In this document: positions 952 to 51,399 of the stretch, piece after piece
How positions within the stretch are numbered: the stretch's first letter is position 1
Layout: every line of letters starts with the position of its first letter
Source: a virus
IMG/VR virus record: IMGVR_UViG_3300017950_000010
Span: 1 to 51,399 of that record
Length of the DNA: 51,399 nt
Reading direction: 5' to 3' (one strand)
Made by a program: the position numbers and the translations under genes
The notes under the pieces: model-generated
The model's input: the letters and a program-made list of their open reading frames with translations, nothing else
Database searches by the model: none
What the model was told of the DNA's origin: nothing

Positions 952-971
952 AACAGTTTCCTTTCAATAGA

Positions 972-1046
972 GAAGTCTGTCTCATCAGGCGTAGGAGACA
1001 ATACCTACACGACTCCCCGAAGGGAGTTTCGACTTTAGAAGTCTTC
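972..1046 (-). ncRNA. Hammerhead ribozyme, type II arrangement (downstream of SSB)
   Basis: On the minus strand the full hammerhead core is present in order. Stem II 5' half is GTC (1033-1031), followed by GAAA (1030-1027). Stem III is A-C-TCCC, a TTCG loop, and GGGA-G-T (1027-1012). The cleavage base is C (1011). Stem I is GTGTAGG/CCTACGC (1010-1004 with 995-989), followed by CTGATGA (988-982). Stem II 3' half is GAC (981-979), with an outer GAAG/CTTC pairing at 1043-1046 and 972-975. Every invariant core base (CUGANGA, GAAA, A-U, H17) matches. Predicted cleavage is between 1011 and 1010. The 5' stem II strand overlaps the SSB stop codon. Confidence 0.85.
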
Positions 1047-1511: not shown

Positions 1512-1583
1512 GAGGATCTGCCTCGTCAGTGCAGAGAGATCATTCTCTACAGACGCCCTAAGGCGTTTCGGCTTGGTTAATCC
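1512..1583 (-). ncRNA. Hammerhead ribozyme, type II arrangement (upstream of SSB)
   Basis: On the minus strand: stem II 5' GCC (1572-1570) and GAAA (1569-1566). Stem III is A-C-GCC, loop TTAG, GGC-G-T (1566-1553). The cleavage base is C (1552). Stem I is TGTAGAG/CTCTGCA (1551-1545 with 1536-1530), followed by CTGACGA (1529-1523). Stem II 3' is GGC (1522-1520), with outer GGAT/ATCC pairing (1583-1580 with 1517-1514). All invariant hammerhead bases are present, and paired bases differ from the copy at 972-1046 with pairing preserved. Predicted cleavage lies between 1552 and 1551. The element overlaps the stop codon of the 32-aa gene and precedes the SSB start by about 30 nt. Confidence 0.85.
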
Positions 1584-32651: not shown

Positions 32652-33574
32652 TGCGTAGTAAAAAAGATATGATGTGTTCTTGTGGGAAGCCGAAAGGTAG
32701 TTGTAAATGTGGTACTTCTAAAGTTAAAGGTTACTACATGGGCGACGCTGCAGTAGCTACTCCCCAACAAGAACAAGAAATGATGGCTATGCTTCCTGGG
32801 TTTCGCGCTCAAGCGCCCTTAGCCCCTCCTGAAGAAGGTCCTAGCCCCCTCGCGCAAGCAGCAACCGGACTTGCTACGGCTCCCGTAAGTAATTATGTTA
32901 TGGAGCAAGGCTCTATGGCTCTTGATTCGGCTAAAGATCTTATGGGTGGTAAAGTTATTGGTGAAACCGCGGGTGATGCAGCTTATAAAACAGCTGTCGA
33001 AGGTGGTAAGAGTGCTACTGAAGCAGTTAAGGCAAGTGCTGCTGCTACAGATGCAGCTACCGCAGCTTCGGGTGCAGCTAGTTCTGCTCTTTCAGGTTTC
33101 GGCGGGGCGGCTGCTGCAGACCTTCTTACTAAAGGTAAAGTAGATGAGAAGACACTTCTTAAAGGTGGACTCGCTATGGGTGCTAACATGCTTCTCCCTG
33201 GCTCTGGTTTCCTTGTAGGTCCTGTTCTTTCTGCTTTTGGTCTCCAAGATGGTACTGCTGAAGTACCCCCGATGGGTTATGCTAATGGTAGTAAGGAAAT
33301 TTCTCCTGAAGAATATCAGATGAACCTTATTAAAGAACGCATTCTTAATCCAGCTGAAGCATACGTTGAAGAACGACCTATGCTTCAAGCACCTTTATTC
33401 CTTGCAGGCGCTGCTCAAAAATTTTCTCGCGGTAAATTACCTTTAGGTAGTTTTGGTGGGGGTAAATTAGAAGGTGGTAAAGATCGTATTGCTTATCGTC
33501 ACGATACTCTTGGTGACATTGAGTACAACCCTAAAGACGAAAGAGTTATGTACAAGAAAACAATTCGATTCTAA
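32651..33574 (+). CDS. Internal virion protein with N-terminal Cys cluster (307 aa)
   Basis: The N-terminus has four cysteines in CSCGKPKGSCKCG (about residues 9-21), a likely zinc site. A Pro-rich segment follows, then a long Ala-rich helical part (about 85-165). Glycine-rich hydrophobic stretches (LAMGANMLLPGSGFLVGPV) could insert in membrane. The C-terminus is basic with VMYKKTIRF. Its place in the ejection module suggests that it leaves the virion with the DNA. The function is not recognised. Confidence 0.65.
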   Translation: MRSKKDMMCSCGKPKGSCKCGTSKVKGYYMGDAAVATPQQEQEMMAMLPGFRAQAPLAPPEEGPSPLAQAATGLATAPVSNYVMEQGSMALDSAKDLMGGKVIGETAGDAAYKTAVEGGKSATEAVKASAAATDAATAASGAASSALSGFGGAAAADLLTKGKVDEKTLLKGGLAMGANMLLPGSGFLVGPVLSAFGLQDGTAEVPPMGYANGSKEISPEEYQMNLIKERILNPAEAYVEERPMLQAPLFLAGAAQKFSRGKLPLGSFGGGKLEGGKDRIAYRHDTLGDIEYNPKDERVMYKKTIRF

Positions 33575-33584
33575 GGAGGGTTTG

Positions 33585-35924
33585 ATGTTAGTTGAACAAA
33601 TCAAACAAGAAGAAGGCTTCTCACCGAAAGTTTACGTCGATACCGAAGGGTATCCCACGATTGGTTTTGGTCGACTCCTTGAAAAGAAAAAGATGACGCA
33701 AGAAGAAGCTGAAGCTAAGTACGGTAACTTAATTGTTACTGAAGAAGAAGCTGAAAAAAATCTTCGGGATTACCTAAATGAAGCTGCCCTTCCAGATGCT
33801 ATAAAATTTGTTGGAGAAGATAATTTTTCTTCTTTGAAACCAGAACAACAAGAAGCATTAGTAAGCATGGCTTATAATCTAGGTAGTGGGACTCTTAATA
33901 AATTTAAAGGGTTAAAGAAAGCTATCCAAGAAGGTGACTTAAATAAAGCTGCTTTTGAAATTTTAGATTCTAACGCCTCTAGTCAGGCGCTTGATCGTTA
34001 CGCAAAAATTGCATCTACGTTTGGAGAGTTACCTTCAGCTGAAAAGTTAAGAACTACTACCTCTGGTAAGAAGTTACTAACGCGTCTTCAATCTCAAAAA
34101 GAATCCGGTTCGTACGTACCTGAAGAATATAACTATTTACTCCAAGAGGAAGTACCTATGGCCAGACCTACGAACCCCGAAGCGGGTCCTAGTGATACTG
34201 TTCCTGCAATGCTTACACCTGGGGAAGCAGTTATTCCTGCACCTGCTGCTCAGAATCCTGAAAATAAAAAACAGATAGCTGAAATGCTTAATGAAGGTCG
34301 CGTTAAAAACGATATCGCAGAAGCTAATGGAGTTCCCGTTACTTCACCGGAAGTCGCTAATATCCCTAAAGAAGAAGTGGGAGGTGGTTTCTTTTCTAAT
34401 ATTAAAGAAGCCCTCGGCTTCGAAGGAGGCACTATGGAAGTACCTAATATGGGAATGATGATTCCACCTAAAGACCCTACTATGGATAAGATGGAACAAT
34501 TAGCTTTCAAACAAATGGACTACGAAATGAAGTCTAAAAATCGTACGAGAGATACCGTAGAAAAAATCGGCTTAAAACATCTTGAAGATACTGCTACAGC
34601 CGAAATGAAACAAATGGCTCTTGACGAGACTATGCGTAATTACGGTCTCGAAGTACCTATGCCTATGCAGCCTGTTCCACAAGCCCAAGGCTTTCAACAA
34701 GGTACTGGCAACGTTTCTTATTTTAACCCAGAAGGTTTTAGTAAAAATGAAATGTATGCAGACCGTCCAGGATTAGGCTTCGTGCAAACATTTGGTGGCG
34801 GCCCTAAATTAATGGAAGATGTTAGCGATGCGGAATTAGCAGAGATATCTCGTTTTGGTCAAACTACAGCAGAACAAATGACTGCTGGTTCTGAACTAGA
34901 AAGACGTATGAGTCAAGTCCCAATGGGTTCTGAAGTAACTCGCGTAACACCTGAAGTTCCTATTAAAATTGCTGGTAGTGATACTACAATTACGCCCCCT
35001 AAACCTGTTCAACAAGTGGTTTTACCTGAAGTTGAAAAAGCGAAAGTTACTCCAAAGGATACCTCTGGGAATACAAGTGGTTTATTTTCTAGTCTTGGAA
35101 AAACTCTTGGCGCTGGCTTTACAAATGCTTTCAAAACAGTATTTGACCCGCAATCGATTGCTACTGCTGGTATTTATTACGGAGTAAATCGCTTACTCGG
35201 TTATGACGATGCTACAGCAGCTAAACAAGCAGCAATAGGTTATCAAACAGGCCAACAACAACTTGCGCTTAGGGCTAAACTAGAAGCGGAAGCATTAAAA
35301 GATACACAAAAGACTCAAGCCCAAAGAGATAAAGAAGATATTTCTAATCAAGCAAAATTACGTGAGGCTTCTGAATCCCAATTTAAAACTGCGTTTGATC
35401 AAGTCCTTACTAAAGAAGGCTCTCAAGCAGCTTATGGGACTACCCCAGAAGCCCTTACAGGTGAAGTTGTAGCTGCACTTAGAAATCAAAACGTAGATAT
35501 GTCAGACCCAATGCAAGTTGAGTATGCAATGAACCTTGTTCCATCTGTTGTTCAACAATATAAAGAGAGTATGCAACGAGGTGAGGAAATTCTTTCAGTT
35601 CAAGATGCTTTTGATAGAGTATTCCGTTCTAAATTAGAAGTAAGTGATGCCTTATCAGTTAAAGACGATGAAGGTGAGATTACAGGTGTTGTTAAAACTG
35701 GAGTGACTGCTCCGTTGTTCAATCAAATTCGTAAGAATATTCCTAACGCTAATACACCTTCTGGCCAAGCTGAGTTTGAGTCTCGTCTTTCAGCAGCTTA
35801 TAAGTTGTTTCAAGAAAGAAAAGGTGACATTAATCTTCCTGCACCTGGTCCTGGGGAGAATGAGTTTACAGTATTCTTAAGGGAAGTACTTAATCAAGGA
35901 AGTATTCGTGATTTCAAAAAATAA
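33585..35924 (+). CDS. Virion-associated lysozyme / ejection protein (779 aa)
   Basis: ATG 33585 follows AAGGAGGG; an in-frame upstream start at 33474 has no ribosome site and overlaps the previous gene. Residues 1-150 form a T4-type lysozyme (GH24). Catalytic Glu lies in QIKQEEGF, Asp and Thr in VDTEGYPTIGFG, and the second half has QQEALVSMAYNLGSGTLNKF. The remainder is a long low-complexity helical protein with GPSDTVPAMLTPGEAVIPAP, as seen in tape-measure-like ejection proteins. It should digest peptidoglycan locally at DNA entry, replacing the transglycosylase of T7 gp16. No separate endolysin is visible, so it may also act in lysis. Confidence 0.85.
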   Translation: MLVEQIKQEEGFSPKVYVDTEGYPTIGFGRLLEKKKMTQEEAEAKYGNLIVTEEEAEKNLRDYLNEAALPDAIKFVGEDNFSSLKPEQQEALVSMAYNLGSGTLNKFKGLKKAIQEGDLNKAAFEILDSNASSQALDRYAKIASTFGELPSAEKLRTTTSGKKLLTRLQSQKESGSYVPEEYNYLLQEEVPMARPTNPEAGPSDTVPAMLTPGEAVIPAPAAQNPENKKQIAEMLNEGRVKNDIAEANGVPVTSPEVANIPKEEVGGGFFSNIKEALGFEGGTMEVPNMGMMIPPKDPTMDKMEQLAFKQMDYEMKSKNRTRDTVEKIGLKHLEDTATAEMKQMALDETMRNYGLEVPMPMQPVPQAQGFQQGTGNVSYFNPEGFSKNEMYADRPGLGFVQTFGGGPKLMEDVSDAELAEISRFGQTTAEQMTAGSELERRMSQVPMGSEVTRVTPEVPIKIAGSDTTITPPKPVQQVVLPEVEKAKVTPKDTSGNTSGLFSSLGKTLGAGFTNAFKTVFDPQSIATAGIYYGVNRLLGYDDATAAKQAAIGYQTGQQQLALRAKLEAEALKDTQKTQAQRDKEDISNQAKLREASESQFKTAFDQVLTKEGSQAAYGTTPEALTGEVVAALRNQNVDMSDPMQVEYAMNLVPSVVQQYKESMQRGEEILSVQDAFDRVFRSKLEVSDALSVKDDEGEITGVVKTGVTAPLFNQIRKNIPNANTPSGQAEFESRLSAAYKLFQERKGDINLPAPGPGENEFTVFLREVLNQGSIRDFKK

Positions 35925-35941: not shown

Positions 35942-38900
35942 ATGGCAGATGATAATACTATGCAGGAAGCACAGGCTATTTTGTTTGGCGTTTCTCCTGT
36001 TGAACCTCAATATAAAATTGAAGGCTCGGCTAACCGACTTATCGACCCTGATACGGTCGCCCTCGCAGAACCTATTAACGGTTATAATCGTATTCGCCTT
36101 CCTGGGATTGATGCCCTTGAAGTTGAGCATATGACTACTGATAATAAAGTAATTCGAGGGGAACTTGGCGGTTCACAATTACATCAAGATGTTTTAGACC
36201 TTGTTAATAAAGGTAACTTTAATAAAGTAATCACAACTGATTCGGTTGATAACACTGGCAAACGTCTTATCGGTGACTTACAAAATGAACAGGGTGAAAC
36301 TTTAAGTCGTAAACTTCTTTATCATAATTTAGTTACGCCGAATGAATATTCTTCAAGAGAACAAATTAATGCTTACCTTGTTGGTGGACTTCAAAAAGAA
36401 ATTAGACGTAAACAAGGTACTATGGATGAATGGGATTTAGCTTCTGATCGTCTTACTCAAAACATTTCCTCTGGCGGCCTCGAAATAAAACCACTTGCTA
36501 TTAATGAAGCTGAATATGCTTCAGCCCCTAATATGTTTAGAGGGGTAGCTGTTCGTAATCGTGATAGAACAATTATGAATAAAGCTCAAAGCACACTTAA
36601 TACAGCTTGGGAACTTGGTAAATTAGGAATGGCAGAAGGGGCTTACGGTTCTTTAGAAATGCTTGGCGACTTAATTGACAGTGATTCACTTACTAAATAT
36701 GGTGAAGCTCACCAAAGACGTCTTCAATATGAAATTGAGAAACTCCCCGTATTAGAAAATCAAAGTGCTTTTGATGAAAACGGTAATTGGACCATTGATG
36801 GTATTGCAGAGTTTGGTAATTATCTTTATACAAATGCAGTCATATCGTCGCCATATATGCTTAACACAATGCTCGCAGGCGCGTTGGCTCCTGCTACTAT
36901 GGGTGCTTCTTTGCTTGCGCCAGCTAGTGTTTACGCAGGTCAAGTTTATAATGAACAAGATGAAGATAATAAAAACCCAGTAGCAGCCCTTATGTCGGGT
37001 ACTGCTCAAGCTGCGTTAGACCTTTTAGGTCTTCGTATCGCTGGTGGTGCTGGGAATTTCCTTACAGTAGCCGGACGTAGGGCTGTTGTAGATGCAGTTC
37101 GCGCAAAGAAAAAATTATCTTTAAAAGATGCAGAAGAACTTGTTACTAAATCTTTCCAAACGTCATTGAGAAGTATTACCAAAGAAGCTCGTGAAACTTT
37201 AGCCGAAGAAATTGGTATGAAGCAAGCACTTAAAGGCATCGGTAAGGGTGCAGCTATTGGTGCTGTATCTGAAGGCGTAACTGAGTCAGCCCAGGAATTA
37301 CTTGCTATGGCTGGCGAGATGAAAGATGTTGATTATAATGAAGCACGATCTAGGCTTTTAAATGCCGTAGTTGCAGGGGCTACCCTTGGTGGTGGTTTCG
37401 GTACTGCAGCAGCTACTACAGACTATATGAGCGTCCGTAATTCAATTTCTAAAACATTTAAAACCGAAGCTGAAGGTGATCGAGATACTAAATGGCAAAA
37501 CCGTGAACGGTTAGCTACAAATAAAGTTCGTAGTGTAGACGAAGTTATTGATGAATATAATAGTAAGACACAAAAATATCAAACTAAAGGGTTAGATGAT
37601 TTAGCGGTTAATGAACGAGAACGAAGGGATGCTGCAGGAACTGTTAGCAATGCTATTTCTTACTTTAAACGTGCTGGCCTTCAAGGTGCTGTTCAAGGTT
37701 TTAAAACAAATCTTTTGAATAAGTACATTGAACGCGGCGAGATTATGAGAAGCCTTGGTTCTGTTCTAGGTGCTAACAAAATTCACCATGGAGTAGATGA
37801 TGAGATTGCTTTGCAAACTCGTGAAGCATCTTTGAATGATATTTTATTTGAAGAAGAACAAGCGCAACAACTCTTCGGTGTTAACGGTTCTAATGCTGTA
37901 TCAGAGATTATGTATAATAACGATGTTATCCAGTATCTTGAAAACCTTATGCGTATTCGTCAAGGTAAGAATTTTGCTTCCCTCGAAGAAGCAGCTAAAA
38001 GTAGCGGTAAAAATCTTGAAGGCCCAAACGCTAAATATCAAGAAGCCATTTTAAAATTTGGCGATCAAATGTATAATCTAGATATCCTTAAAGGACAAGA
38101 TATTGGTACATCTCTTACTGATCGTGTTATTAATAAAGGTTTTCTAGAAAAGAATATTGAAGAGTTTAAAGCTTTGCTCGTTGAAAAGAAAGGGGTAGAC
38201 CCTCAAGCAGCAGAACGTATTGCTAATGACATTCGAGATTTACAGTATATTGAAAAACCTGAATCAGCAGTTGACGATTTACTATTAGACTTCTCTGATT
38301 TATCTACCGATTACAATATTAAAAATTTACAACAAGACCCTGACTTCGCTAAGTTTTACGATAACAATATTTTTTATAATCTATTTACTAGCAATGCTTC
38401 ACATGCTGCTCGTTATGTTAATAGTAAATACTTTGGTAAAGGCGGTTCTAAAATTGCTGGTATGCTTCAACTCGCTAAAGAGAATGGAGAGATATCTCAA
38501 AATGAAATGGAATTTTTGGCAGCTGAATTATCCGATTATCAACGGATGAAGAATAACGAGTATGGTCGTATTGAAAATGATTTCTTAAGGAAGTCACAAC
38601 AAAATGTTTTGTTTTTCACTACATTAAATCAGCTTCCCCTTGCTACTCTTGCATCATTAGTTGAGCTTGCTCTTTCTACTCGGATGCTTAGTCGCGATCT
38701 CGTCTTTAAAGCAATTGGCCCTGCTACAAAAGCCCTTGGGCTTGAAATGAATAACTACATTAATGAGATATCGGCAAAAACAAAAGTAACACAACGTAAA
38801 AGTTATTTAGCAGGTTCCAGAGCGTTGCTTAAATCTTCTGGTTATCTTGTTCAATCTCAAGGTGCGCGACAACGTGCGGGTATTGATGAAGTTTCGGGTA

Positions 38901-39775
38901 AGAAAAATAATCTTATGAATTCATTCTTTAAGCTTATTGGTCTTCAAGGTTTTACTAACTTTTCTCGTTCAATTCGTCTTGGTATTTCTGGTGATTACAT
39001 TATGGATCAAGTCTCTGTACTTGCAGAGGGTGAAGCAAATACTATTGGAGCTCTAGAAGCCCGTGAAAACCTTGTTCGACTAGGTGTTGATATTGATTTC
39101 CTTGTAGATAAATACAAAGTCCCTGGGCCGTTAACTTCAACTGATATGGAATATCTTAATACTCAGCTTCTTAATGGTAGCATTGCGTTTACAGATTTAG
39201 CGGTAGCCCACCCCCGTGTAGGTAATCGACCTAAGTTTTATAGCGATAAACGATTGGCACTCCTAATGGCTTTCCAAGGGTTTATTGCAACGTTTACTTC
39301 AACGATCCTCCCGCAAATTTATCGTGGACTCGCAGGGCGAACTATTGGTGCGCGTATGGAGTCAGTTAAAACAATTGCATTACTTATTGCATTTGGTTTT
39401 CTTGCTCAATACCTTCGTGACCTTCTTAAATACGGTGAAGTTCCTGATTGGATGGACGATGAACAAAAATTTCAGCGAGCCATTTATTCATCGGGTCTCC
39501 TAGGTACTGGTGAAAGGGTTTATGATATGTTCGATCCCTTATACCCCCAACGTACTTCAGGTGCTGTTGATAGTATTGGTAACTTCCTTGAAGGAGAAAT
39601 CCCAGCGGTTTCTTACGGCGCTCGGATTGCTGATACTGTTGGTAAAGCACTCGACGGAGAGTATGGAGCAGCAGCTAAGGGCGCATTTAAATCATTACCA
39701 TTAGTCGGACCGCTCCATCAAGGGGCAGTTGAAACACAAGATATAGTCGATAAGGCTCTAAGAGGAAAATATTAA
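35942..39775 (+). CDS. Large ejection protein with N-terminal SNase-like domain (1277 aa)
   Basis: Residues about 24-132 look like a staphylococcal-nuclease fold: Asp37-Thr38 (IDPDTVAL), Arg52 and Asp57/Glu60 (RIRLPGIDALE), Arg108 (GKRLIGDLQ) and the final LSRKLLYHNLV helix. Spacings Arg-Asp 5 and Asp-Glu 3 equal those of SNase. The rest is a long helical virion protein with an Ala-rich hydrophobic stretch (about 295-340) and a C-terminal membrane-active-looking part (IALLIAFGFLAQYLRDLL). It lies between lysozyme and polymerase-like genes. It might degrade host DNA, trim DNA ends, or have lost activity and only bind. AAGGAGAAA precedes the ATG. Confidence 0.65.
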   Translation: MADDNTMQEAQAILFGVSPVEPQYKIEGSANRLIDPDTVALAEPINGYNRIRLPGIDALEVEHMTTDNKVIRGELGGSQLHQDVLDLVNKGNFNKVITTDSVDNTGKRLIGDLQNEQGETLSRKLLYHNLVTPNEYSSREQINAYLVGGLQKEIRRKQGTMDEWDLASDRLTQNISSGGLEIKPLAINEAEYASAPNMFRGVAVRNRDRTIMNKAQSTLNTAWELGKLGMAEGAYGSLEMLGDLIDSDSLTKYGEAHQRRLQYEIEKLPVLENQSAFDENGNWTIDGIAEFGNYLYTNAVISSPYMLNTMLAGALAPATMGASLLAPASVYAGQVYNEQDEDNKNPVAALMSGTAQAALDLLGLRIAGGAGNFLTVAGRRAVVDAVRAKKKLSLKDAEELVTKSFQTSLRSITKEARETLAEEIGMKQALKGIGKGAAIGAVSEGVTESAQELLAMAGEMKDVDYNEARSRLLNAVVAGATLGGGFGTAAATTDYMSVRNSISKTFKTEAEGDRDTKWQNRERLATNKVRSVDEVIDEYNSKTQKYQTKGLDDLAVNERERRDAAGTVSNAISYFKRAGLQGAVQGFKTNLLNKYIERGEIMRSLGSVLGANKIHHGVDDEIALQTREASLNDILFEEEQAQQLFGVNGSNAVSEIMYNNDVIQYLENLMRIRQGKNFASLEEAAKSSGKNLEGPNAKYQEAILKFGDQMYNLDILKGQDIGTSLTDRVINKGFLEKNIEEFKALLVEKKGVDPQAAERIANDIRDLQYIEKPESAVDDLLLDFSDLSTDYNIKNLQQDPDFAKFYDNNIFYNLFTSNASHAARYVNSKYFGKGGSKIAGMLQLAKENGEISQNEMEFLAAELSDYQRMKNNEYGRIENDFLRKSQQNVLFFTTLNQLPLATLASLVELALSTRMLSRDLVFKAIGPATKALGLEMNNYINEISAKTKVTQRKSYLAGSRALLKSSGYLVQSQGARQRAGIDEVSGKKNNLMNSFFKLIGLQGFTNFSRSIRLGISGDYIMDQVSVLAEGEANTIGALEARENLVRLGVDIDFLVDKYKVPGPLTSTDMEYLNTQLLNGSIAFTDLAVAHPRVGNRPKFYSDKRLALLMAFQGFIATFTSTILPQIYRGLAGRTIGARMESVKTIALLIAFGFLAQYLRDLLKYGEVPDWMDDEQKFQRAIYSSGLLGTGERVYDMFDPLYPQRTSGAVDSIGNFLEGEIPAVSYGARIADTVGKALDGEYGAAAKGAFKSLPLVGPLHQGAVETQDIVDKALRGKY

Positions 39776-42700
39776 TGGCTAAGTTTACAGTTACCCCTAC
39801 GGGGCAGGCCGGACAACTAACTCCCGAACAAATTGAGGAGATGGAAGCTCGGCAAACGGTATCGTTACCTAAAGGTGCGCAGCCAGAACTCCCTACAGAA
39901 TCCCTAGGGTTAATCGATCAAGCACGAACAATCTTGGCTGGCGGGGCTTTCGTATCCCCTCCAGACCAAGCCCCGTTTGTTGCTCCTGAACAACCAGCAC
40001 TTCCTGGAGTTACACCTGAGTTAAGCGCTATGGTAGATCCAATGGGTCGTCCAGTTACTGGCGAAGAACGCCAAGCACTTGTTCAAGAAGAACTTCAAAG
40101 GCAAGCCCAAGAAGTTGAAGAACGTTTAGGCCCACTCGATTTAATTGCTCGTGAAGATTTTGAAGAAGCTTATTCTTATCTTGATGACCCTACTACTGTT
40201 GGAACTATGCAACGGGCTGCAATGGATACTGGTGAAATCCTTTCTCAGTATAACTATGCTACTGAGGGTGAAGCAAATCAAACGGGTATTGATGTTCTTA
40301 ATAACTTAGTTGAGTCGCCATCATCTGTTGTAACTAATAATTCTATTATTAAATCGCTTATTACTATTGGTAGCGGTGCATATGAAAAATCTGAAAGAGA
40401 CCCTAACTTAGGTTCTATGTTTGAAGATGAAGCTACAACTGAATCTCTTTTAGACTTCAGTGATTTATCTTCGGGTAAAGAACAAGGCATTGTCGGTGGC
40501 GGCATTGAAGCAGAGACATTTCATTCAATGATGGGTAATCAAATGTTTAATAACATTCATCGCCCTCAGGTAAATGAATTTGGACAACCTATTGCTCGCC
40601 CTATAGTACAAGACCCTACGAATACTAATATGGCTGGGCAGTTAGCTTCCCAAGCTTTAGTTGATACAGGGTTTCTTCTTAAAACACAAAGGCCGTTGGT
40701 TAACGACGTTAATAATAAACTACCCCCTGAACAAAACCCTATGATTGACGTGTATGTTGTAGGACCTTCAGGACATAAGTTCATTATGAATGCTAAAGAA
40801 ATTGCTCGTAATGAAGATCTTAATAACCTTAACGGGCGGACTCAAGTAGTACCTGTAGGGGAGTCAGGGTTTTATAGTGGGGCACTAGCTCTTACTCGCC
40901 GAGGTGATATTAAGCGTTCAGGTCAAAGTAAAAAACCGGAAAGCCTTGCAAGTTACCAAAGGAAAGCAGGTCAAGTTGGTCGTACTGTAAATCCTAATGG
41001 ATTTTTTATGTATGCCCTTATGAATAGCCTTGTTAATACAGGCGCATTAGATGAAACTACTAATGCCCAATTAAATAAAATTCTTAATACATCTGTTGGT
41101 GAGAAATCAGATGATGTAGTCAATGATAAAGTTCGAAAAAGAGAAAAGGAACTTAGTCTGTTAGCGCAGAATCTTTTAGAAGGTAAGACTAGATATGCTC
41201 CGCATTTTTTAGATCCCTCAGTTAATCGTCTTTACGATGATACTATTGATATGAATGCTCAACGATATACACAGGTTCGTGGGGCTATTCAAGCGGCTAA
41301 GAGAAGTGTTATTTCACCTAGTTATACTGACGTTACTCCTGGACAATCACTTGTTCCTAGCTCAGTAGCTATTAATTTCGTTGATTCCCTTCGGAATAAT
41401 TTTGATAAAGAGTTTTCTCTTAACGAAAAAGAATTATCATTCTTATGGTCATTATCAAAAAACTTACACAGTGATTCTGATGGATGGACTATTGAACGCA
41501 CATTAGGAGAGCTTACACCAGAGAAAATGCAACAGTTTGCACAGAAAGGTGCTGTCCTCAAAAAAGTTCTTCCCCAAGATGCTAATGAAGCTACTGTTTC
41601 AATGGCGCTCTCAGGTCAAATGTTACTTCCCCAACTATCCGAAGCAGACATGTCCACCTTAAAAGAAATCATTGGGACTATGGGTAAAAAGGATTGGGGT
41701 TTCAAACTTCAATCATATATTGATGCCCATAATTACATGACTAAAAATCAGTTCATGCCATCTACACTTACTGAAATGGATATGAACTCTGCTGGTCGTG
41801 CATTCTTAGCTGCTGATATTGGCAATGAAGATGTTCTTGAACGGGTCGGCCTCATTTATGAGAATCTTAGTTTCGATCCAGAGAACCCTACTACATTACC
41901 ATTTGGTTCTCCTAGAAAACACTTTTATGACTTATCATCTATCGTCGTAAAAGATTTTTATAATACTCCAGAGAAGTCTGAACAAGGTCAAGTTTTACTT
42001 TCAGCTTTAAAAGCAGCAGAGAAAGAGTATGGACAAGAGTTTGTTGATGACTTCGGTAAAAAAGTACTACTAACAACTGATTATGGTAAGGCTATTACGG
42101 CGCACACTGATGCTGCTCAAGCTCTTTTTGATAAGTATCCCTCAATATTAAACGCAGTATCTCGTTTCTCTAATAATCCAACTAGAGAAATGGCTGATGT
42201 TTATTCTCAAGTTCTCTTTAGGGCTATTGATACATTTCAAATGAGTACGCCCAAGAAAATGTCGATGGCGTTGGGGTTAGTTAATAAAGTACCTAGTCCT
42301 ACTGGTTATTATAATGAGTCTATTCCTTTTGGAATGACTAAAATGATTCCTACATCTACATCTATGGTAGCATTGGAAGGTCCTCAATTACAACCGTTAA
42401 CACCTCAGGTAGATCCTGGGGCGCGTGGTCGTATTAAAACCTTTGATGAAAATCCCTATATGCCACCTGCTATGAGCGCTGTAGCAAATGCTATTGGCCC
42501 TGCGCTTGGTCAGTATAGGGAATCTATTATTCTTGAAACGGCAGTTAATGAAGTCAATAAGAATAACGACATACCAGATTTCTTTATCCCTGTATTTGAT
42601 AATCTAATTGTTAATAGTACAGACGCGCTTAAGTATCATTATGCAGCAAATAATATTGCAACTAAAAATGCTTTCGCTTGGAATATGAAACAAGAATTCT

Positions 42701-43122
42701 CTGAAGACTTTCAAAAGAAATTTGCGGAAGGTGTTAAAGAAATCCCTGAGTTAGTTTCTCTTGATAAGAATTCGCCGTATCATCCTATGCTTCAACATCT
42801 AGATGAGAACGTTAGGTTCTTAGAGAGAGTTAAAAGGGATGATCCTGATCTCGCTAAAGGTGTTAAAGAAAATGTTAAAGGCGTAGAACAGTTTATTGAA
42901 ATCGCTAAGGCAAACGGTTATATCCCTATCACTCAACGAGGTGCTGATGTACCTCCGATTAGTGAGCAACAATATAAAAATATATTGCAAGCCTTTATGG
43001 TTATAAACAAATTGCGCGGTGAAAAGAATAACATGGTTAAGTGGTTAAAAGACCACGAAGGTAAACGTGATAGAGCGTTAAATAAAATTTTCCGTCAACG
43101 TTACATTTACTTTATGACATAA
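39775..43122 (+). CDS. Large virion protein with a degenerate single-subunit RNA polymerase-like core (1115 aa)
   Basis: The C-terminal half shows motif-A-like TEMDMNSAGRAFLAADIGNE (Asp669) and motif-B-like GKKVLLTTDYGKA (Lys762, Tyr770). Motif C is matched by FIPVFDNLIVNSTDA (Asp942). Spacings are 101 and 172 residues; in T7 RNA polymerase Asp537-Tyr639-Asp812 are 102 and 173. The K(K/R)xx(L/M)TxxY pattern also matches this phage's own RNA polymerase. A helix-rich DWGFKLQSYIDAHNYM segment precedes motif A, as in T7. The DxxGR arginine and the fourth motif-B residue are not clear, and His of motif C is Phe. It is last in the ejection module and may be a virion RNA polymerase or a derived binding domain. 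Confidence 0.55.
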   Translation: MAKFTVTPTGQAGQLTPEQIEEMEARQTVSLPKGAQPELPTESLGLIDQARTILAGGAFVSPPDQAPFVAPEQPALPGVTPELSAMVDPMGRPVTGEERQALVQEELQRQAQEVEERLGPLDLIAREDFEEAYSYLDDPTTVGTMQRAAMDTGEILSQYNYATEGEANQTGIDVLNNLVESPSSVVTNNSIIKSLITIGSGAYEKSERDPNLGSMFEDEATTESLLDFSDLSSGKEQGIVGGGIEAETFHSMMGNQMFNNIHRPQVNEFGQPIARPIVQDPTNTNMAGQLASQALVDTGFLLKTQRPLVNDVNNKLPPEQNPMIDVYVVGPSGHKFIMNAKEIARNEDLNNLNGRTQVVPVGESGFYSGALALTRRGDIKRSGQSKKPESLASYQRKAGQVGRTVNPNGFFMYALMNSLVNTGALDETTNAQLNKILNTSVGEKSDDVVNDKVRKREKELSLLAQNLLEGKTRYAPHFLDPSVNRLYDDTIDMNAQRYTQVRGAIQAAKRSVISPSYTDVTPGQSLVPSSVAINFVDSLRNNFDKEFSLNEKELSFLWSLSKNLHSDSDGWTIERTLGELTPEKMQQFAQKGAVLKKVLPQDANEATVSMALSGQMLLPQLSEADMSTLKEIIGTMGKKDWGFKLQSYIDAHNYMTKNQFMPSTLTEMDMNSAGRAFLAADIGNEDVLERVGLIYENLSFDPENPTTLPFGSPRKHFYDLSSIVVKDFYNTPEKSEQGQVLLSALKAAEKEYGQEFVDDFGKKVLLTTDYGKAITAHTDAAQALFDKYPSILNAVSRFSNNPTREMADVYSQVLFRAIDTFQMSTPKKMSMALGLVNKVPSPTGYYNESIPFGMTKMIPTSTSMVALEGPQLQPLTPQVDPGARGRIKTFDENPYMPPAMSAVANAIGPALGQYRESIILETAVNEVNKNNDIPDFFIPVFDNLIVNSTDALKYHYAANNIATKNAFAWNMKQEFSEDFQKKFAEGVKEIPELVSLDKNSPYHPMLQHLDENVRFLERVKRDDPDLAKGVKENVKGVEQFIEIAKANGYIPITQRGADVPPISEQQYKNILQAFMVINKLRGEKNNMVKWLKDHEGKRDRALNKIFRQRYIYFMT

Positions 43123-43132
43123 TAATAATAAT

Positions 43133-43182
43133 AAGAAAAGCCCCCATGGGACTCCTATATGGAATCTCATGGGGGCTTTTTT
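43133..43182. terminator. Bidirectional terminator between the two arms
   Basis: GCCCCCATG (43140-43148) and CATGGGGGC (43168-43176), with an inner near-complementary stem, form a long hairpin. AAAAG lies on the left and TTTTTT on the right, so it can stop transcription from both sides. It lies where the rightward virion genes and the leftward replication operon converge. The nearby AATAATAATAATAA is a stop-rich simple repeat. Confidence 0.92.
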
Positions 43183-43185
43183 AAT

Positions 43186-43461
43186 TTAACCTTTCATAAG
43201 GTTTTTAATGTTTTCTCGCGCTTTATTTCTGAATTCATTAGCACGTACTTGAGCTTCTTCCTCGGTATATCGTTGAGAAGTCTCAGGGTTTAACTCTGTT
43301 TTAAAGTGTTCTAAGTTAGCCTCATACATTCGGTCGAGAACGTAATCATTGTACTTAGGGGTATTCAAAATATCTGAAGGAACAGTTAATCCTAAGGCTT
43401 GAGCGTGTTCAGCATCAGTAACATTCTCGCCTCGAAGGGCGGCGGCATTGTAATTTTTCAT
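43186..43461 (-). CDS. Small paralogous protein B of a tandem pair (91 aa)
   Basis: Begins MKNYNAAALRGENVTDAEH and shares the frame of its upstream neighbour: MKNYN-x-x-AL-x-G, a GL turn, then a TP-x-x-ND/YND-x-x-LD-x-x-Y segment, and a helical charged tail. Last gene of the leftward operon before the bidirectional terminator. It is probably soluble and helical. Two diverged copies side by side suggest duplication. I know no function. The ribosome site is weak (GAGAG). Confidence 0.7.
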   Translation of the reverse strand: MKNYNAAALRGENVTDAEHAQALGLTVPSDILNTPKYNDYVLDRMYEANLEHFKTELNPETSQRYTEEEAQVRANEFRNKARENIKNLMKG

Positions 43462-43774: not shown

Positions 43775-46105
43775 CTAACAGAAAAAGTATTTTGAATTGT
43801 ATACATTGTTAATCTCTAAAGAACCTAATGAGGCTTCTGTCTCAAAGCTATCAGGGTCAGTTAACAATGCTTCCTTAATCTCATTGTAATAGTTTGCATT
43901 ATCGTAAAGCCGCACGAAGTAATCGCGGACTAACGTATTTAATTTTGTAATGTCGCAAGCGTGAGTAGAGAAGCTATCGTGTACGGCCCCGAAAGAACCT
44001 TCCCATTCAGAGGCTACCAACATTAAATGAGCAGCATCTTGTGAATGAATAAAGTTAGGGGAGATACCAGATATGTATGCTCCAATGTCAGCTATGTGAG
44101 TATCTACTCTACCTACGTGTTTAATTTGTTTCCCAGCAATACGCCCACGATGCTTAATAGCTTCTTGTCGGTTCCGCTGGTATATCACTAGGAAATTAGA
44201 TGGAGTCCACCATTGAAGATGAACATTCCGGTCATCTATTTCCTTCCGGTAATTCACTTGATGTACCGCAGCCTCTTGAAGAAACGCCATTGTAGCTAAA
44301 GGACCAGGACAAACCCTATCGATAGCCTTAATGATACACTGTGCTAACCCTATACAGTCGATCATAGTGATGCCATACTTATCTGTATAGCCCTCCTTAT
44401 AACAATCTGCATACATACTCACAGACATCCTCTTTGCCCCACAGGAGTATGCTCTAGTCATAGCGGCACGTTTAGCAATACCCTTTCTAATATCTCTCAT
44501 GGGCATTGACTTGATTATGCTTATTAGGCGTTCATCATTATTCTCTTGGACTACTGTGTAGAGTTCTTTGGCTACTTTAACGTAGAAGTCCGATTGAATC
44601 TCAGTGTCAATAAGCGATACTAACTTACCAGCTTGTTCATCCTTAGATATAGCAGCAAGGTGTTGCCAACCATTATTAGATCCATCGATAGGGATAGGGA
44701 GATAAGTAATGTGGTCAGGCCCATCATTCTGTACATGAATCATTTCAATACAAGCAGCGAGGAAGCTAAACGCTTTCTCCCCGTGGAGTAAACCTTCTTG
44801 GGCTGTCCTATTAATTAAATTTAAGTTACTATAAGTCCAACGCGCCCTATCTTGTAGGGTCATCTTATCAACTGAGATAGACCGGAGTCCTTCTGAGAGG
44901 AGATAAGCTTTATAATCTGAAGTAACCCACTCAGGGATGTCATCGATCTCGTATGATTGATTGTAAGAAGTAGCTGTATGAATAGCAAGCCATTTAATAC
45001 CGTCTTCCCCAATACGTTTACCATCAGCAAACATCATGAGACCCCTAGCAAGGTCGTTACCTTGAAAGTTAAGGTAAGGCTCAATGAAATATAATCGACC
45101 CCGATAATCAAAGTCAGCGTATTGCCAGAAGACAGTACTGCCGATAGCCTCAGCTTTGTGGAGGATAGTTTTCATAGCGTAATTCTTAGACCTCGCTCGG
45201 AGGACTAGTAATTTCTTATTCCACTTAAGTGTAGCTTCATTATAAGCCTCTTGGTTTTCTTTAGTATCTTCCTTCATCAACTTTGAAAGAGCAATCTTAA
45301 CATCTGATGGGTCGCCTTCCTCTGGCATATCAGTTTCTTCATGAAGGATTTCTTGGAAGCGATCTTTGACTACCTTAAGGACATCTTGGTTGATACCCCA
45401 AGGAGTCTGTTGAATTACATTTAAACCCTGAACGAACTCACTAGTCTTCATCTCGTAATCTTGGAAGGTAGTTATGTATTCTTTATCCCAACCCTTAATA
45501 AGACTCCGAGGCCCCGTAGGGGTATTCTGAAATAAAGCAGTGACCTTCTGAGGCTTCTCAAAAGAAGTACCTATTAAAATCTTCTTATCAATAGTGGCGT
45601 CATCCTTAAGGGAAGCCCAAGTATCAGTTGCCCTTAGAGCGTAGGGTACGTTAAGTAGTTTAACGTTGTACTCAGGGTGTGTCTTATAAGTGTCAGGGTA
45701 AATCTTCTTGAGTTCACCCATGTAAGCAATGCGAGCCTCCGTTTGTTCGGAACCCCGAATGAGGTCTGAGTAACCCGTAGCGACTACTGAGTCGAGGATA
45801 CAATCGCCAATGCGAAGATGATTCCTAAAGTCTTCCTTAGGTTTATCTACCCCATACTCCAGTCCGATTCTCCGACAAATTTCTCTTCCAATAGCTGTAG
45901 ACACAGTAGTAAGACGAGCGTATCCATACGGGAATTCCTCGTCGTATTTATTATAGTGTGTTCCTAAAGTATCTAGTCCAGTCATAATGAATTCAACGAG
46001 GCGGTGTTCGTGCTCTCGGAGAATCTTAGAACCAGGGTTTGCTTTAGGATTATTAATGTTAACAGATTCAACCTTAAGTTTTAAATGGTCTACAATGTCC
46101 TTCAT
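43775..46105 (-). CDS. T7-like single-subunit DNA-directed RNA polymerase (776 aa)
   Basis: All family motifs are intact. DxxGR occurs in ADFDYRGRLYFIEP, followed by NFQGNDLARGLMMFADGK. Motif A is PIPIDGSNNGWQHLAAI. Motif B is RDIRKGIAKRAAMTRAYS, holding Arg, Lys and Tyr at the usual spacing. Motif C is GAVHDSFSTHA. The region SPNFIHSQDAAHLML precedes motif C as in T7. Shorter than T7 (883 aa) mainly in the N-terminal domain. It would transcribe the phage's middle and late genes from its own promoters. Unlike in T7, where it leads the early region, it is near the end of the leftward operon. GAAGGACTC precedes the ATG. Confidence 0.96.
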   Translation of the reverse strand: MKDIVDHLKLKVESVNINNPKANPGSKILREHEHRLVEFIMTGLDTLGTHYNKYDEEFPYGYARLTTVSTAIGREICRRIGLEYGVDKPKEDFRNHLRIGDCILDSVVATGYSDLIRGSEQTEARIAYMGELKKIYPDTYKTHPEYNVKLLNVPYALRATDTWASLKDDATIDKKILIGTSFEKPQKVTALFQNTPTGPRSLIKGWDKEYITTFQDYEMKTSEFVQGLNVIQQTPWGINQDVLKVVKDRFQEILHEETDMPEEGDPSDVKIALSKLMKEDTKENQEAYNEATLKWNKKLLVLRARSKNYAMKTILHKAEAIGSTVFWQYADFDYRGRLYFIEPYLNFQGNDLARGLMMFADGKRIGEDGIKWLAIHTATSYNQSYEIDDIPEWVTSDYKAYLLSEGLRSISVDKMTLQDRARWTYSNLNLINRTAQEGLLHGEKAFSFLAACIEMIHVQNDGPDHITYLPIPIDGSNNGWQHLAAISKDEQAGKLVSLIDTEIQSDFYVKVAKELYTVVQENNDERLISIIKSMPMRDIRKGIAKRAAMTRAYSCGAKRMSVSMYADCYKEGYTDKYGITMIDCIGLAQCIIKAIDRVCPGPLATMAFLQEAAVHQVNYRKEIDDRNVHLQWWTPSNFLVIYQRNRQEAIKHRGRIAGKQIKHVGRVDTHIADIGAYISGISPNFIHSQDAAHLMLVASEWEGSFGAVHDSFSTHACDITKLNTLVRDYFVRLYDNANYYNEIKEALLTDPDSFETEASLGSLEINNVYNSKYFFC

Positions 46106-49887: not shown

Positions 49888-50082
49888 TTATAGTTCCTTA
49901 TTTTTAGTGAATGAAACGGAAAACATTTCAGGTTCTTCTGGCGCATACTTAATCTTACGCCAACCCATTTCTAATTTATAACCTGACATATCAGGGTTTA
50001 AAGCTTTTCTTTGAGCCCAAGCTTTTCCTGCTTCTTCATCAGGGAATAATCGATTAATATAACTGTTAAATGTTTTAACCAT
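49888..50082 (-). CDS. Small hypothetical protein after DNA polymerase (64 aa)
   Basis: The start overlaps the polymerase stop as TAATG. Basic, aromatic protein (MVKTFNSYINRLFPDEEAGKA, RKIKYAPEEPEMFSVSFTKN). No membrane segment or motif. Coupled production with the polymerase suggests a replisome accessory, but nothing further can be read from the sequence. Confidence 0.65.
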   Translation of the reverse strand: MVKTFNSYINRLFPDEEAGKAWAQRKALNPDMSGYKLEMGWRKIKYAPEEPEMFSVSFTKNKEL

Positions 50083-51399
50083 TAATGTGTCTCCGCTAGG
50101 TTGTTACCGATTTCGTAATCACCCGACATAATAGTTACGCCGAGAAGCTTTGGGGCTTCAGTTAAACCTTCAACAAGAATTGCACCAAGTCTTTCGGCGT
50201 GTTCTTCCTTACAGCTATACTGAAACTCGTCGTGATACATTAGTCTTGGTTCACATTCAATATCTTCTTCCGCTATACGTTCCTTAATATAACCAATAGC
50301 AATCTTCATAGTAGCAGCTTCAGCTGATTGAAGAAGATAATTAAGTGTTTGATAAGACTCTCTTACATAGATACGCTGACCACCTAAGCCCCGAATGAAT
50401 CCGTGACCAGTTAAATGTTTAGCACGTTTAAATTGTTCTTCCAATTTAGATTTGAGTCGTGCTAATCCTGGAATAGCTTTAGCGTACTTATCTTTAGAAG
50501 CATTACCAACGTCAGCGTTCATAACACCCGTAATGTAAAGCCCTAACTTAGCAGCACCAGCACCGAAGAGATAAGCGTAAATCCATCTCTTAGCTGCAGC
50601 CCTAGAACAACCTAGGATATCTGCGTTCTTCTGGTGAACATCACCATTGAGGACTTCATTAGTAAAGTCTTCATCCCCAATGTAATGGGCTAGAACTCTG
50701 AACTGATTACCAGCAGAGTCAGCGCCGACTACTACATGACCTTCCTCTGGGAGAAACAATGCACGCATACGCTTTCCCCATTCCTCAGTCGCTCCAGGAA
50801 GGTTGGCGATAATCTCATGCCTCCATCTAAATGTAGGCGTTCCAATATTCCAAGCCCTTCCGTGTAGTCTCGTACAACCACGTTCATCAGTGACAGAATC
50901 TCGGACCCATCCTTGTGTAATACTAAGGCGTGATCTAAGAGTAGTCCAGTCATCGATACTTCTGCCGATGTCTCCAAGCTTTTCCAGACTGGAAGTAGTA
51001 AGCTTAGGACCTGTTCGTTGAAAATCACCGGAAGGAAGTCGTTTGACGTTCCAATCATCAGGTTCCCATCCGATTCCATATAAGTACTCCTTCACTTGTT
51101 CTAAATTGCCTAGTCTTGTTTTGACCTTACGGCTTCGTTGAAACTCGACATTAGGATTAATAGGAGGCTCATCAAGAAGAGCATCGTTAGGAGTGATATT
51201 CCTATCAAAGTACTCACTAAGAATACGGCAAGTTGCCGCAGTATACTCACCATTCTTTTTATACTTAGGGGTCTTCGGGGTCTTATCGATGAGCTCCGTA
51301 TGCATACCCAGAGATGGCTCAACTTTCCTTTCGATATTAGCCATAGCTGTTTGTAGTTGAGTAATAAGAATATTAGCTTGTTCAAGATCGAACCTCCAT
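50082..51399 (-). CDS. DNA polymerase, A family, T7 gp5-like (C-terminal part; 5' end beyond the window)
   Basis: The frame is open to the window edge (it reads through ATG 51344, preceded by WRFDLEQANILITQLQTA). The 439 residues seen are the palm-fingers-thumb. Motif A is VVVGADSAGNQFRVLAHY, followed by LNGDVHQKNADIL. Motif B is RAAAKRWIYAYLFGAG. Motif C is MYHDEFQYSC. The N-terminal 3'-5' exonuclease domain, about 250 residues in T7, should lie beyond the edge. It replicates the phage genome, probably with host thioredoxin, though the thumb insertion for it cannot be judged. Exonuclease and primase genes follow in the operon. Confidence 0.95.
   Translation of the reverse strand, partial: WRFDLEQANILITQLQTAMANIERKVEPSLGMHTELIDKTPKTPKYKKNGEYTAATCRILSEYFDRNITPNDALLDEPPINPNVEFQRSRKVKTRLGNLEQVKEYLYGIGWEPDDWNVKRLPSGDFQRTGPKLTTSSLEKLGDIGRSIDDWTTLRSRLSITQGWVRDSVTDERGCTRLHGRAWNIGTPTFRWRHEIIANLPGATEEWGKRMRALFLPEEGHVVVGADSAGNQFRVLAHYIGDEDFTNEVLNGDVHQKNADILGCSRAAAKRWIYAYLFGAGAAKLGLYITGVMNADVGNASKDKYAKAIPGLARLKSKLEEQFKRAKHLTGHGFIRGLGGQRIYVRESYQTLNYLLQSAEAATMKIAIGYIKERIAEEDIECEPRLMYHDEFQYSCKEEHAERLGAILVEGLTEAPKLLGVTIMSGDYEIGNNLAETH

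Follow-up and report, generated by a model that had tools for sequence, protein, structure and literature searches.

The 1115-aa protein encoded at the end of the late operon in IMG/VR virus record IMGVR_UViG_3300017950_000010 is probably a second, single-subunit RNA polymerase (RNAP). Profile homology, the predicted fold and a conserved active site support this identification, which an earlier note on the same DNA had proposed; catalysis is inferred. The protein is probably a compact DNA-dependent enzyme which is made late, packaged with the ejection proteins, injected with the genome, and used to transcribe the first genes before a T7-like RNAP takes over. Single-chain RNAPs packaged in the virion are a defining trait of N4-like phages and are viewed as very large proteins with several domains; to our knowledge, such an enzyme has until now been known only as the giant N4-like protein of about 3,500 residues.

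The window (the whole stretch of DNA that was analysed, 51,399 bases) contains the following features around the polymerase gene:

33474..35924, plus strand: 816-aa ejection-module protein with a lysozyme domain (Pfam Phage_lysozyme, 5.9e-15)
35942..39775, plus strand: 1277-aa ejection-module protein directly upstream, without Cys; its stop overlaps the polymerase start
39775..43122, plus strand: putative virion RNA polymerase, 1115 aa (ORF, 47-member family, profile-profile comparison, AlphaFold/Foldseek)
43130..43186, no strand assigned: hairpin with 26-nt arms, flanked by A and T runs; probable bidirectional terminator between two convergent polymerase operons
43775..46105, minus strand: 776-aa T7-like RNA polymerase (second, intracellular; Pfam RNA_pol 1.2e-56; PHROG 414 2e-107; 10 Cys)
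50082-51344, minus strand: phage DNA polymerase

The 1115-aa ORF is real, and its ATG start overlaps the 1277-aa ORF's stop by one base (TAATG). Disorder is predicted for residues 1-75, and the remainder is predicted to be folded. The C-terminal third of the 1277-aa protein is related to the LUZ24 gp50 virion protein (PHROG 6958, 1e-30; LUZ24-like Pseudomonas phages). Other genes in the window encode TerL, ribonucleotide reductase, portal, scaffold, major capsid protein, tail fibre and the lysozyme-bearing ejection protein; the minus strand carries the T7-like RNAP, dCMP deaminase, primase/helicase, exonuclease and DNA polymerase. The residues singled out by the earlier note (D669, K762/K763, Y770 and D942) are present at the spacings it gave, 101 residues from Asp to Tyr and 172 from Tyr to Asp (it listed 102 and 173 for T7), and both this protein and the 776-aa RNAP contain the pattern K-K/R-x-x-L/M-T-x-x-Y a single time. 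The 1115-aa protein does coexist with a T7-like RNAP encoded by the same phage, which is not unusual in itself since N4 also encodes RNAPII besides its virion RNAP (vRNAP) (PMC4496689). The closest cultured phage is Roseobacter phage CRP-7, a podovirus, for which a T7-like RNAP is the only RNAP described (PMC6918029).

Taken alone, the window protein has no match in Pfam, PHROGs or PDB sequences by single-sequence searches, and no relatives in the phage collection (tblastn) or in viral_contigs (peptide patterns). A match to Pfam Nif11 (E 0.005) falls under Pfam's cut-off and was judged to be due to chance. CRP-7 gp33, encoded at the same genomic place, aligns with the window protein over 638-830 (E 2e-4). 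As a query against phages gp33 retrieved only itself, and two further family members retrieved nothing. Given the lack of single-sequence matches and the syntenic alignment of gp33, relatives were fetched via the adjoining T7-like RNAP. Iterating a profile over all ORFs of T7-like-RNAP loci yielded 47 distinct homologues, gp33 included, with divergence down to 11-16% identity; complete members are 1115-1294 aa long. The family gene lies directly downstream of the T7-like RNAP gene and convergent with it, 225-755 bp away, in 59 of the 61 loci that extend at least 1.5 kb downstream of that RNAP; both exceptions have a more distant RNAP (28% identity). Wherever an ejection-protein gene was detected as the neighbour on the contig, it lay between a 24 nt overlap and 18 nt upstream of the family gene. 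No earlier report of the family was found in the literature searched, in which subscription papers were poorly covered.

The family is homologous to single-subunit RNAPs. In hhalign comparisons its profile matches those of N4-type vRNAPs (prob 98.2, E 4.9e-14, 556 columns) and of T7-like RNAPs (prob 95.1, E 3e-8), and the controls are null: five neighbour protein families, the reversed profile and ten column shuffles all give prob <=0.5. Most of the signal is supplied by one clade (L080/L038). The window's own 4-sequence sub-clade, without its relatives, reaches a modest 2.2e-4 with N4-type vRNAPs; its links to the other family clades score 6e-37 to 2e-6. In independent HMM libraries, single members match PHROG 414 RNA polymerase (best 7e-8) and PHROG 2206 virion RNA polymerase (5.3e-9). 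The family profile has no significant match among PDB sequences, so the link to PDB rests on the predicted folds and on hhalign with phage RNAP alignments.

Structure prediction, which the earlier note had named as a check, gives a single-subunit RNAP fold for both family members modelled. For the AlphaFold model of the window protein (pLDDT 75.7, pTM 0.79), 50/50 of the PDB matches listed by Foldseek are single-subunit RNAPs at prob 1.00; the best is yeast mitochondrial RNAP (2.1e-14), and T7 RNAP (~1e-12) and N4 mini-vRNAP (3.9e-12) are among them. RNAPs and vRNAPs are also matched in BFVD. A member of the CRP-7 clade (L004, 13% identical) gives a weaker model (pLDDT 64.7) with the same structural elements and the same single-subunit RNAP matches among those listed (best E 7.5e-10). 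Whole-chain TM-scores are about 0.4 with large rmsd, so the domain arrangement is not established. In the window model Asp669 ends a strand, Tyr770 ends a helix and Asp942 lies in a beta-hairpin turn. The motif positions are thus placed where palm and fingers need them, as judged from predicted secondary structure without distances, and they are conserved in the homologues. To this extent the protein withstood the refuting conditions set by the earlier note. The active-site residues of the window protein are:

41212..41262, plus strand: altered T/DxxGR motif, residues 480-496; R485 is equivalent to T7 R425 and N4 R424, and N494/Q496 to T7 N433/Q435
41779..41781, plus strand: motif A Asp669, equivalent to T7 D537 and N4 D559; invariant, at the end of predicted strand 665-670
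41914..41916, plus strand: Arg714, at the position of T7 Tyr571; invariant in the family
42058..42087, plus strand: motif B Lys762-Gly771, equivalent to T7 K631..Y639-G640 and N4 K670..Y678-G679; at the end of predicted helix 754-769
42598..42600, plus strand: motif C Asp942, equivalent to T7 D812 and N4 D951, with Phe before it as in N4; in the turn of predicted hairpin 937-940/943-947

Across the 47 homologues R485, D669, G692, R714, Y770, G771 and D942 are invariant or nearly so, and K762 is either K or R. When 20 family, 11 N4-type and 14 T7-like cores were aligned together without constraints, R485, D669, K762, Y770 and D942 fell in the same columns as their T7 (R425, D537, K631, Y639, D812) and N4 (R424, D559, K670, Y678, D951) equivalents. 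The Asp of motif A, the Tyr of motif B and the Asp of motif C are each found in 20/20 family members, and the motif-B Lys is K in 17 and R in 3. Because these residues are conserved across 47 homologues and align with the catalytic positions of T7 and N4, the motif match is more than chance. The DxxGR motif and the motif-C His had been called missing or altered in the earlier note, and the enzyme possibly degenerate. The T/DxxGR motif is altered, with Gly in 9/20 members and Asp absent, but it is not missing: its Arg (R485) is invariant, and N4-type enzymes vary in this column too. Phe does replace the motif-C His in the window protein, but this is normal for N4-type vRNAPs (6/11, N4 included). 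Another member (L014) and CRP-7 gp33 have His there; gp33 has all the motifs but also differs from the window protein in having Arg instead of the motif-B Lys. Since the catalytic residues are invariant, degeneracy is judged unlikely.

Two positions set the family apart. The motif-B Arg (T7 R627, N4 R666) is D758 in the window protein, and is Arg in 2/20 and Lys in 6/20 family members. Lys stands here in 13/14 of the T7-like RNAPs compared, the adjacent ones, T7 itself having Arg, so the superfamily does not strictly demand Arg at this position. At the T7 Tyr571 position 20/20 family members have Arg, whereas all T7-like and N4-type enzymes compared have Tyr; we infer that the invariant Arg compensates for the lost motif-B Arg.

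Packaging of the protein in the virion is inferred from gene position, lack of cysteine and analogy, without proteomics. The family gene closes the late operon, adjoining the ejection proteins, and a strong, probably bidirectional terminator comes after it; the gene for N4 gp50 occupies the equivalent genomic place. Cys is absent in 44/47 family members, and the adjacent T7-like RNAPs (n=62) contain 11.9 on average and 8 at minimum. N4 gp50, gp51 and gp52, ten other Schitoviridae vRNAP segments, and T7 gp15 and gp16 have no Cys either. At this phage's average Cys frequency the probability of finding none in 1115 aa is ~5e-4. The absence of Cys is supportive but not conclusive, as some ordinary structural proteins (N4 MCP) also lack it. 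The flanking regions of the N4 enzyme are said to serve injection and encapsidation (PMC5512222); as they are absent from the family, packaging would need another signal. Large ejection proteins (T7, N4, CRP-7, window) are generally Cys-free and cytosolic phage enzymes are not; Cys absence could act as a general marker of ejected proteins.

That the motifs are chance matches in an unrelated ejection protein might be argued from the lack of any single-sequence match in Pfam, PHROGs or PDB, but profiles, folds and residue invariance have already refuted this, and practically nothing speaks for it any longer. A relative of A-family DNA polymerases or of primases is only slightly easier to credit and remains very improbable. 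In its favour, the palm and the K-x7-Y-G pattern are also found in A-family DNA polymerases. In Pol I a steric-gate Glu stands at +5 after the motif-A Asp and Phe/Tyr at +4 after the motif-B Lys; the family has Gly (17/20) or Asn, as in RNAPs, at the former position and M/V/T/L at the latter. These residues suggest, as far as sequence can, an RNA rather than a DNA polymerase. The PDB matches listed are also all RNAPs, and the phage has its own DNA polymerase.

It is unlikely, but less readily set aside, that the protein is an RNAP-derived ejection protein which has lost catalysis and now acts structurally, in the ejection channel or in pulling DNA. Helical, structural proteins are common among ejection proteins, the R627/R666 equivalent is lost, T/DxxGR is weak and Tyr571 has become Arg. 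However, R485, D669, Y770-G771 and D942 have stayed invariant or nearly so despite 11-16% identity, and a scaffold would not be expected to retain the two metal-binding Asp residues together with the Tyr that selects the substrate. It is also quite unlikely that the protein is an active RNAP confined to the cell, working late in infection without being packaged. Such an enzyme is allowed for by a virion location that is inferred from position and composition with no proteomics, but it would not be expected to lack Cys in 44/47 members when 62 adjacent T7-like RNAPs have at least 8, nor to share this composition with N4 gp50-52 and T7 gp15/gp16. The overlap of the polymerase start with the ejection-gene stop also stands against it, and a late-made second RNAP would duplicate the T7-like one. 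An active and packaged polymerase thus remains the preferred reading.

The N4-type vRNAP (gp50, Schitoviridae) resembles the family in its single-subunit RNAP fold and motifs, in having no Cys, and in being encoded by the last late-operon gene, convergent with replication genes. Around the motifs some members are most N4-like (motif A, VEIDGRTHGP in L038 and VEADGVTNGP in N4; motif C, PIFDAF and, in N4, KIFDGM, with IFD in common). The N4-type enzyme differs in length (~3500 aa, the family being one third of this at 1115-1294 aa) and in having an HExxH metallopeptidase and a large C-terminal domain; HExxH occurs in 0/47 family members. N4-like RNAPs have been described as always fused to such metallopeptidase or giant flanking domains (PMC5512222). 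The N4-type enzyme also keeps motif-B R666 and Tyr571, whereas the family is mostly without the motif-B Arg and has an invariant Arg at the Tyr571 position; furthermore, it is hosted by Schitoviridae, and the family's phages are not Schitoviridae. In a phylogenetic tree the family, N4-type and T7-like enzymes lie on three separate sides of branches with SH-aLRT 80, 99 and 100, and the family does not group within the vRNAPs of Schitoviridae. It could still share an origin with N4 vRNAPs, given the very long branches and an SH-aLRT of only 80 for family monophyly. The window protein is nevertheless not a plain N4 vRNAP: it belongs to a separate clade, and lacks the N4 flanking domains and the motif-B Arg. 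The T7-like RNAP of the same phage (776 aa) is alike in fold and catalytic residues, but belongs to another clade, is Cys-rich, lies on the opposite strand with replication genes, and has a canonical DxxGR, Q-H after motif A and HD at motif C. In StenR_269, another non-N4 podophage, a large protein was suggested to be a vRNAP from its size, lack of Cys and helicity (PMC10747016); the likeness lies in that suggestion, made partly from Cys absence, and no sequence comparison is involved. The evidence is evenly balanced on whether the family forms a lineage of its own, the third among phage single-subunit RNAPs, specialised for virion delivery without giant N4 flanks. In that reading the substrate contacts of the lost motif-B Arg would pass to the invariant Arg at the Tyr571 position, and two phage RNAPs, one packaged and one cell-made, would act in relay.

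The proposed order of events is inferred. The family RNAP would be expressed late, its gene closing the structural operon, and would then be packaged alongside the ejection proteins and ejected ahead of or with the DNA. Once injected, it would transcribe the first genes; the T7-like RNAP gene would be among them, reached directly or by read-through, and its product would then take over transcription. N4 likewise uses its vRNAP to make RNAPII (PMC4496689, PMC12633501). Early promoters for the family RNAP are also inferred. In CRP-7 a 20-bp element and close variants (0-3 mismatches) precede five operons in both arms, including that of the RNAP gene:

L001 (CRP-7) 2025, 7146 and 14763, plus strand, and 38262 and record position 57212, minus strand: 20-bp element TATAGTCCCCTATTAAAAGG

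The element also precedes the T7-like RNAP gene in CRP-7 relatives, and there is none before CRP-7 gp01-gp05. Presumably one of the two phage polymerases uses it as a promoter, and it could belong to either. In the window no equivalent of this element was recognised, nor was any shared promoter-like repeat found. In the early intergenic regions examined, where exact promoters are undefined, no N4-like hairpin promoters were recognised and there was no excess of hairpins with 3-5-nt loops. Hairpins lying between the first genes of CRP-7, considered as vRNAP promoters, were rejected, being in part a type II hammerhead ribozyme.

Several other RNA elements were observed in these phages. Type II hammerhead ribozymes, all above the Rfam gathering score, lie directly upstream of early genes:

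Window 1512-1573 and 971-1034, minus strand: two hammerhead ribozymes in tandem gene spacers
L001 570-633, plus strand: hammerhead ribozyme at the homologous place in CRP-7, also found in relatives L111-L114

Conserved spacer hairpins with the loop TGTAATG lie beside early genes (L001 1100-1200 and 322-420; L111-L116). Their stems are CACACC/GGTGTG and CCTCC/GGAGG, the second being kept in relatives with other loops. A further conserved spacer element, GGGTAAACTGGAAGGAACGAAACCTGAGAGTTTACC (L001 1540-1600; L111-L116), has a stem that is altered on both sides in L113 (ACACT/AGTGT); it has no Rfam match at gathering score and is possibly a structured RNA. CRP-7 also contains a group I intron (L001 36986-37196, minus strand) between two pieces annotated as ribonucleotide reductase genes.

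Relatives of these podophages, the CRP-7-type group, are widespread in seawater (PMC6918029). The marine podophages carrying the family would, it seems, pack a small self-contained RNAP besides the T7-like RNAP made in the cell, and a function is given to a family that is annotated as a hypothetical protein in CRP-7, the only isolate found carrying it. If true, this explains how transcription starts in these podophages, and an enzyme the size of the N4 catalytic domain shows that the flanking domains are dispensable for packaging and ejection. CRP-7 gp33 is small material from a cultivable phage for the question of how a folded polymerase passes a short tail.
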